Assembly: GCA_016209155.1 (NCBI GenBank)
Contig: JACQWU010000335.1
Coordinates: forward strand, 1-7,471
Source: Candidatus Desantisiibacteriota bacterium
GTDB lineage: Bacteria > JACRDZ01
Direction: 5' to 3'
Length of the DNA stretch: 7,471 bases
Part shown: positions 1,532-5,913 of the stretch, piece after piece
Layout of the letters: every line of letters begins with the position of its first letter
Numbering within the stretch: position 1 is the first letter of the stretch
Notes under the pieces: model-generated
What the model saw: only the letters and a program-made list of their open reading frames with translations
Databases searched by the model: none
Told to the model about the DNA's origin: nothing
Program-made: the position numbers and the translations under genes

Positions 1532-1534
1532 TAA
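1532..1534 (+). other. Premature in-frame stop codon in serS
   Basis: TAA lies in the serS frame between codons for KFEE and LFK, where related enzymes commonly carry an acidic residue. TAA also terminates glmS (5911-5913) and the secreted protein (4068-4070), so it acts as a normal stop in this genome. Downstream, ATG 1619 is preceded by GGGAG (1606-1610) at 8-nt spacing and could in principle restart translation. The product would lack the N-terminal arm and motif 1. Confidence 0.9.
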
Positions 1535-3002
<1,468 letters not shown>

Positions 3003-3015
<13 letters not shown>

Positions 3016-3029
3016 GCTGAAGACTGAAG
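3003..3029 (-). repeat. 27-bp dispersed repeat, copy 2 (reverse), overlapping the 3' end of uppP
   Basis: The reverse complement of this block matches 841-867 at 26 of 27 positions. Bases 3003-3015 form the end of uppP including its TAG stop, so the repeat contributes coding sequence. With copy 3 it forms an inverted pair. Confidence 0.8.
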
Positions 3030-3067
3030 GATATTAGTCAGTACCTAAAAGCCTTCCGCCTTCAGCC
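3015..3067. repeat. Imperfect hairpin formed by inverted repeat copies
   Basis: GGCTGAAG (3015-3022) pairs with CTTCAGCC (3060-3067). After a 3-by-3 internal loop (ACT/CGC), GAAGG (3026-3030) pairs with CCTTC (3052-3056). The apical loop is 21 nt. The hairpin begins at the last base of the uppP stop codon. It could protect the 3' end of the mRNA or reduce read-through. No T-tract follows on the + strand, so it is not a canonical intrinsic terminator. Confidence 0.6.
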
Positions 3068-3076
3068 TATACACCT
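3053..3076 (+). repeat. Dispersed repeat, copy 3 (forward, diverged)
   Basis: Aligned to the first 24 positions of the unit (in the copy 2 version), this block agrees at 20 of 24. It shares an uninterrupted CTTCAGCCTA core. It faces copy 2 across a 23-nt spacer, giving the head-to-head arrangement seen in REP doublets (BIMEs). The divergence makes it less certain than the other two copies. Confidence 0.55.
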
Positions 3077-3458: not shown

Positions 3459-4070
3459 ATGAAAAATAAAAAAATATATATATTTATGATTTTATCACTT
3501 TTAATAATGTCAGGTATAGATAAATTAAATGCATGGGAACACAAGGATATTTCAAAAAAAGATATAAGTGAAAACTTTGATGAAAGTCAATATGTACGAT
3601 TAAGCAATGAAGATAAATTTTTTATTTCATTCGCAATTTCTGTCCCTAAAATAGTTGAAAATAACATAGATAACCTTATTGCATTAAAAAGGATTGAAGC
3701 TGATAAGCGTGATTTGAAAATTAAAGAGGAAATGGAGTTTCTTAATCTGAATGAAGGAATTTGTGTGACCATAGGTATTTTAGGCAAATTTTGGACAAAT
3801 TATAAACCTAATATTGGAGGGATTGCCGACAGGATTTATATTGAAAATGACAAAGGGAGCTCATATTCTTACAAAAAGATAATTAAAAATATTACTTCTG
3901 ATAATTTGGAAGATAAAGATAGTCTGGTTTTATCATTTCCAAAACAAGTTGTTACCAGTGATAACAAAAATATCCATATTGTGATAAGAGGAATAGATAA
4001 AAATGCACCTTTAGAAAAACAGGTTAAGGTGACTTTTCCTCAAGAAGTGGTTTCATATCTTCTTAAGTAA
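3459..4070 (+). CDS. Secreted or periplasmic protein of unknown function
   Basis: I do not recognise this 203-residue protein. It starts at ATG 3459 with AGGAG at 3444-3448. The N-terminus is a clear signal peptide: basic MKNKK, a hydrophobic stretch at 6-20 (IYIFMILSLLIMSGI) and a likely signal peptidase I site after LNA (residue 25). There is no lipobox cysteine, so a soluble exported protein is more likely than a lipoprotein. The mature part starts with a charged segment rich in Lys, Asp and Glu (26-60), followed by a probable helix (about 66-96, charged residues and Leu/Ile). The C-terminal half alternates polar and hydrophobic residues as in beta strands (DRIYIEND, SLVLSFPKQVV, NIHIVIRG, QVKVTFP). 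It has one cysteine in the mature chain and no further membrane segment. It is separated from both neighbours by its own gaps and promoters, so it is probably a single-gene unit. Coding character and export are secure; function is not. Confidence 0.8.
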   Translation: MKNKKIYIFMILSLLIMSGIDKLNAWEHKDISKKDISENFDESQYVRLSNEDKFFISFAISVPKIVENNIDNLIALKRIEADKRDLKIKEEMEFLNLNEGICVTIGILGKFWTNYKPNIGGIADRIYIENDKGSSYSYKKIIKNITSDNLEDKDSLVLSFPKQVVTSDNKNIHIVIRGIDKNAPLEKQVKVTFPQEVVSYLLK

Positions 4071-4184: not shown

Positions 4185-5913
4185 ATGTGCGGGATTATAT
4201 GGTATATAGGCAGTAAAGAAGTTGTTCCGATACTTTTAAACGGATTAAAAAAATTGGAATATCGCGGTTATGATTCTGCTGGAATTGCAATAGTTATCGA
4301 CGGCAGAATTGCAATAAGCAGAAATCAAGGCAAAATAAAGGATCTGGAAGAAAAAATTTCAGGTAAAAAACTTTTATCTTCCATCGGGATCGGGCATACG
4401 CGATGGGCTACACACGGAAAACCTTCAGAGGAAAATGCCCATCCGCATATTGATTGTAATAATAATATTGTTATAGTTCATAATGGTATTATAGAAAATT
4501 ATCTTGAGTTGAAAAAACAGTTAATCAAAGAAGGACATATTTTCAGATCCGAGACAGATACAGAAGTTCTGGTTCATCTCATAGAAAAATTTTATAAAGG
4601 TAAAAACCTGATAAAAGCTGTACAGCAGATGATTAAGAAGATTAAAGGCGCTTATGCTCTCGGAGTCATGAGTTCACAAGAACCCGATAAATTAATTGCA
4701 GTAAAAAATAGAAGTCCTTTAGTTATAGGAGAGGGGAAAAATGAATTTTTTATTGCATCTGATATGCCGGCTATCCTGAATTATACGAGAAAAGTAATTT
4801 ATCTTGATGATAATGAAATGGCAATACTTACAAGAGAAAAACTTTCCATATGTAAATCCCATACAGGTAAAAGTCTAAAGAAAAAAACAGAGGAAATAGC
4901 ATGGGATCCAATACAGGCTGAAAAAGGGGGATTCCGGCATTTCATGCTTAAAGAAATATGTGAACAACCGCGTGTTGTCGAAGATACATTCTTATCATGC
5001 GGGTATGGTTGGTAAATATATAATTGAGGATCTGCTTAAGATTCCTGTAGAAGTCGATATTGCATCAGAATTCAGATATAGAAATCCAATAATTAACAGG
5101 AATGATCTTGTAATTGCTATTTCTCAATCCGGAGAAACTGCTGATACTCTGGCGGCAGTACATCTTGCAAAAGAAAAAGGCGCCAATCTTGCTGCTATTT
5201 GTAATGTAATTGGAAGTTCTCTTGCCCGCGAAGCACACGGAGTAATATATACCCATGCCGGACCTGAAATAGGTGTGGCATCAACTAAGGCATTTACTTC
5301 ACAGCTTGTTGCTATTTATGTATTTGCTTTGTTTCTGGGCAAGACCACTAAAAGAATATCTTTACATGATATAGAAAAAATCACCAGAGAATTAAGAAGA
5401 ATACCTAAATATATCGAGGATATAATAACTGATATTGAAAAAAATATTAAAAAAGAGTCTTATAAATATTTTAATTATACAAATTTTTTATATCTGGGAA
5501 GAGGGATAAATTATCCTATTGCTCTGGAAGGGGCATTAAAATTAAAAGAAATTTCCTATATTCATGCTGAAGGATATCCGGCAGGTGAAATGAAACACGG
5601 GCCTATAGCTTTAATTGATGATAATATGCCGGTTGTGGTAATTGCTCCGGATGGAAAAATAAATGAAAAAATTATGGCAAATATAGAAGAAGTTAAAGCC
5701 CGGGATGGGATTGTTATTTCCATAACTACAAAAGGGAATAAAGAGATAATAATAAAAAGTGATAGTAGTTTTGTTATTCCAAAAACAATGGAAATATTAA
5801 GCCCTCTTTTGACTATTATTCCTTTGCAATTACTGGCTTATTATATAGCAGTTAAGCGCGGATGCGATGTGGATCAGCCGAGGAATCTGGCTAAAAGTGT
5901 TACAGTTGAATAA
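4185..5913 (+). pseudogene. glmS: Glutamine-fructose-6-phosphate aminotransferase, broken by an internal deletion and frameshift
   Basis: GlmS makes glucosamine-6-phosphate from fructose-6-phosphate and glutamine, the first step to UDP-GlcNAc. The first frame (276 codons) carries the N-terminal glutaminase: MCGII with nucleophile Cys2, HTRWATHG (71-78), HNGIIENY (99-106) and SETDTEV (122-128), then the start of the first SIS domain (MLKEICEQPRVVEDTF). It shifts at about 4986-4992 and ends at 5015. The next frame resumes with SYHAGMVGKY and reads SQSGETADT, IGVASTKAFT, then the second SIS domain with LKEIS, KHGP and the terminal DQPRNLAKSVTVE. These hold the equivalents of E. coli Glu488, His504 and Lys603. 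The two parts add up to about 577 residues against about 608. Roughly 30-36 codons between VVEDT and SYHAG, including the CGT of the substrate-binding CGTS loop, are missing. Frame arithmetic requires the lost length to leave a remainder of 2 after division by 3. As written the enzyme is non-functional. Trp6 replaces the usual Gly of CGIVG. Confidence 0.93.
4983..4995 (+). other. Deletion/frameshift junction in glmS
   Basis: Read in the first frame the bases encode D-T-F; read in the second they encode S-Y of SYHAG. The residues normally preceding SYHAG are CGT, and a Gly-Thr codon pair would supply a GGTACAT-like sequence. This resembles the GATACAT found at 4983-4989. The join could therefore reflect slippage between short similar sequences. 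This origin is inference, as the lost sequence is not available. Confidence 0.75.

Follow-up and report, generated by a model that had tools for sequence, protein, structure and literature searches.

An in-frame TAA in an otherwise intact seryl-tRNA synthetase gene of a Desantisiibacteriota draft genome, probably an assembly or consensus error

The seryl-tRNA synthetase gene (serS) of the window, the 7471-bp stretch of DNA analysed here, occupies a frame at positions 887-2185 of the forward strand whose sole interruption is a TAA at codon 216 (1532-1534). This TAA is probably an assembly or consensus (sequencing) error, and we infer that the particular base is wrong from the condition of the gene and of the surrounding assembly. 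The consensus of a poor draft metagenome assembly would have acquired the TAA in place of a Glu or Asp codon through low coverage, strain mixture or a faulty join, and serS would be intact and working normally in the living organism. The window is a complete contig (C267) of a 3.08-Mb draft genome, G000, that is distributed over 352 contigs with scaffold gaps and is 78.8% complete. Base or assembly error is the leading explanation because local assembly damage is dense in the same contig and in the same genome, and a recent, real lesion is the next.

Each half of the gene is readily recognized. Preceded by a ribosome-binding-like AAGGAG (875-880), read from the sequence 6 nt 5' of the start, the 5' part (887-1531) encodes the N-terminal arm and the start of the catalytic domain in 215 codons and matches positions 1-217 of the bacterial SerS profile TIGR00414 with 204.6 bits. 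The 3' part (1535-2185), 216 codons and a TGA at 2183-2185, matches positions 219-418 with 347.7 bits, so that exactly one profile position is lost at the TAA. Because both halves are long, collinear and of one family, their arrangement is not a chance one. When the TAA is read through, the gene covers positions 1-418 of the 418 in the NCBIfam model and scores 570.4 bits, against a curated cut-off of 301.65 bits. The serine-binding motif TAE (residues 230-232), motif 2 (FRREAG, at 260) and motif 3 (GRTL, at 389) all lie intact 3' of the TAA. These results bear out the original prediction, made from the letters of the window, of a frame open for 215 codons before and about 216 codons after a single TAA, with the family motifs continuing past it.

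Compared to known bacterial SerS (TIGR00414; PDB 2dq3), the window gene is alike in its full-length match, in the possession of all motifs and in an identity of about 60-66% to many serS genes, and differs by the one in-frame TAA at codon 216, which denies it the uninterrupted reading frame of the family. The rest of the gene is sound, with 2 departures among 93 near-invariant columns. Codon positions 1 and 2 are conserved equally well or better 3' of the TAA than 5' of it, and there is therefore no decay behind the stop. A gene that is otherwise this healthy has been under selection until now, from which it follows that the TAA, if not an error, is very recent. SerRS is normally essential. 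The description of serS as an essential, single-copy gene holds for the window gene, a single-copy gene for an ordinary bacterial seryl-tRNA synthetase.

The residue aligned to the TAA is Asp in 94 and Glu in 15 of the 109 other serS genes compared, as had been anticipated for this site, and just one of the 109, that of the phylum-mate G002, carries an internal stop of its own. In the two nearest intact relatives, G001 and G003, the residue is Glu encoded by GAG, and in G002 it is Asp encoded by GAT. The proposal that a single change converted GAA to TAA is an inference: GAA is the main Glu codon of the window genome (54 per 1000 codons versus 13 for GAG), but GAG is the codon of the nearest intact relatives.

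The window genome is extensively damaged at the level of the assembly. A 752-kb sample of G000 contains 23 runs of N, versus 1 in a 400-kb sample of G003 and 0 in a 169-kb sample of G002. Many of these N-runs are flanked on both sides by the same 10-23 bases, with one flank pair differing by a base; the duplicated flanks are scaffolder gaps, left where contig ends overlap. The density of local breaks in the sample is raised in other ways as well. A 28-bp tandem duplication breaks a frame in L034, abrupt losses of about 40 codons that change the frame occur in L053 and L237, alaS is divided into two pieces by an N-run, and a 698-residue frame in L252 is split by an N-gap. An in-frame TAG is found in one of two lon genes (L255:3976), beside a long run of A, the other lon being intact, and an in-frame TAA in a cheB-like gene (L035:1294). 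The main EF-G gene is intact, and no in-frame stop was found in the main orthologue rows of rpoC, ileS, uvrA and alaS in a panel of 20 genomes. Apparent stops at L034:4058 and in L053 and L057 were discounted because the frames run antisense to real genes or the match simply ends there, and the frameshift candidates in L044, L109, L110 and L252 are due to N-gaps, not indels.

A further break lies in the window itself, in glmS, and was absent from the original prediction. The 5' part of the gene (4185-4991, forward strand) matches profile positions 1-268 (TIGR01135/NF001484) and the 3' part (4990-5913) matches from about position 295-304 to 607. At the join (4985-4995) about 36 codons are missing and the frame changes, with six references passing from query residue 267 to 304 as the target passes from 4991 to 4990. 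This glmS is the only copy in the genome. The gene that overlaps the end of serS (2182-3015, forward strand) is unbroken and uppP/bacA-like, matching NF001392 (undecaprenyl-diphosphate phosphatase) over 276 residues with 221.6 bits, below the curated cut-off of 308.

The literature search provided analogies only and nothing direct. False pseudogenes in draft genomes, described for long-read assemblies (Kastor; PMC12007338), are alike in that numerous otherwise intact essential genes of a genome are each cut by a single stop or a frame change. They differ in that the present genome has the look of a scaffolded draft, for which the read type may not be the same. Should the serS TAA be an error, the lesson is that a lone stop in an essential gene of a scaffolded draft usually has a technical origin, and the quickest test of such a stop is the assembly's own record of N-gaps, duplicated flanks and frame-changing losses.

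Two observations run against an error. The damage elsewhere in G000 consists mostly of joins and gaps, unlike the clean codon change in serS, and G002, in whose sample N-gaps are absent, likewise carries clean stops within the frames of essential genes, serS included. No N-run, duplication or long repeat was found at the serS stop itself. The TAA could instead be a real nonsense mutation of very recent origin, carried by the sampled population or by a single strain of it, and represent a dying lineage or a minority allele picked up by the consensus while other cells keep intact copies. The sequence near the TAA looks free of errors, the absence of decay 3' of the stop fits a recent event, and the N-gap flank pair that differs by a base hints at a mixture of strains. 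However, an essential single-copy gene cannot remain broken, and many of the other breaks in the assembly look technical. We consider a recent mutation unlikely, although it comes second to error.

If the TAA were real and also translated, it would represent a rare bacterial case of sense decoding of UAA despite the use of UAA to end most genes. Read-through or a suppressor tRNA would yield a full-length SerRS, and perhaps control its level, in keeping with the preservation of frame, length and motifs across the stop and with the presence of a TAA in serS of G002, a member of the same small phylum. The comparison with relatives points the other way. The G002 stop is at codon 182 rather than 216 and the serS genes of G001 and G003 are stop-free, so a recoding site is not conserved; at codon 216 itself, all 109 other genes have Asp or Glu. 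The RNA 3' of the TAA folds no better than shuffled sequences (z = 0.03), and Rfam has zero matches within the window. No UUA or CUA anticodon was detected by ARAGORN among the tRNA places found in the draft. TAA is also the main terminator, closing 230 of 362 long frames in the genome sample (TAG closes 53), including the ORF at 3459-4070 and glmS in the window, and for this reason UAA is not reassigned, in line with the argument made beforehand from neighboring genes. Reassignment is likewise rejected on the rarity of internal stops, of which three are credible in 52,642 homology-covered codons, two of them TAA (serS and the cheB-like gene) and one TAG (lon). Read-through of the serS TAA finds no positive support, and a translated stop is very unlikely.

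It is also conceivable, with a probability lower still, that an intact second serS resides in the missing portion of the genome, roughly 21%, with the window copy being a pseudogene. The completeness of 78.8% leaves space for such a gene, and one genome of the comparison, G055, has two serS-like genes. On the other side, each of the three phylum-mates has one full-length serS and the window copy is without signs of decay. Profile and protein searches of the 78.8% complete draft found no second serS. The other PF00587 matches in the window genome are the prolyl- and histidyl-tRNA synthetases (proS and hisS), and a tblastn search of plasmids returned serS matches only, all below 60% identity. 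Because about a fifth of the genome is missing, the negative results for a second serS and for a suppressor tRNA both apply to the part that was assembled. The original prediction had placed base-call error, a very recent lesion, suppression or read-through, and a second serS side by side without ranking; error now leads and a recent lesion is possible, and neither the second serS nor the tRNA with a UUA anticodon that it called for was found in the draft.

The stops of G002 raise the question of whether the phylum, sampled here by four genomes (the window genome, G001, G002 and G003), shares an unusual tolerance. The only serS of G002 has a TAA at codon 182 (L074:2189, reverse strand), where its mates have GAC for Asp, and the next codon is changed from Leu to Lys. 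Its tsf gene has an in-frame TAG, its only full copy of pyrH has both an in-frame TAA and an in-frame TAG, and glnA has an in-frame TAA; these four stops lie at L081:6150, 6554 and 6827 and at L082:4336. These three genes are otherwise intact, with no TGA among their in-frame stops, and there are no N-gaps or frameshifts in the 169-kb sample of G002. Internal stops occur in 2 of the 110 serS genes examined, both in the four-genome phylum. Given that the window was selected on account of its stop, a fair comparison is 1 of 3 phylum-mates versus 0 of 106 others, and this clustering is no more than suggestive. At several of the stops the homologues carry Glu or Asp, a pattern that equally fits G-to-T errors in GAA or GAG codons. 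Blastocrithidia is reported to read UAR as Glu, with a dual meaning for UAA (PMC12153298). The window serS resembles that system in having an in-frame UAA at a Glu/Asp site in a genome where UAA ends genes, and departs from it in having only three credible internal stops in 52,642 codons and in the matching tRNA, which was not found in the draft. Essential genes of the window genome and G002 might accommodate UAA and UAG within their frames, for the most part at sites of Glu or Asp (in serS of both genomes, in one lon copy of the window genome, and in tsf, glnA and, at two codons, pyrH of G002), through low-level decoding of UAR as an amino acid alongside termination, which we regard as highly improbable.

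A split SerRS, with two separately translated halves, is the least credible of all: both halves are open and a GGAG stands a little 5' of an ATG at 1619-1621, but this first in-frame ATG past the TAA (Met245) lies downstream of the TAE at 230-232, so a restart there would lose the serine-binding motif and two functional half-proteins are unlikely, and in all compared homologues but G002 serS is one unbroken frame; a split gene was accordingly rejected.

Several repeats and palindromes were seen in the course of the analysis. The motif CTTCAGTCTTCAG / CTGAAGACTGAAG occurs in the window at 841-853 and at 3006-3076, where it belongs to an imperfect inverted repeat whose arms are 32 nt long. There are 8 copies in the 752-kb sample of G000 and 0 in the samples of G002 and G003, and the motif is perhaps a dispersed palindromic repeat. 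A perfect 10-bp palindrome, AATAATTATT (1530-1539), encloses the serS TAA, and the stop in the G002 gene (L074, near 2189) lies inside TATGCT-GTAAA-AGCATA. The palindromes around both serS stops are possibly a trace of template switching, or else a product of chance.
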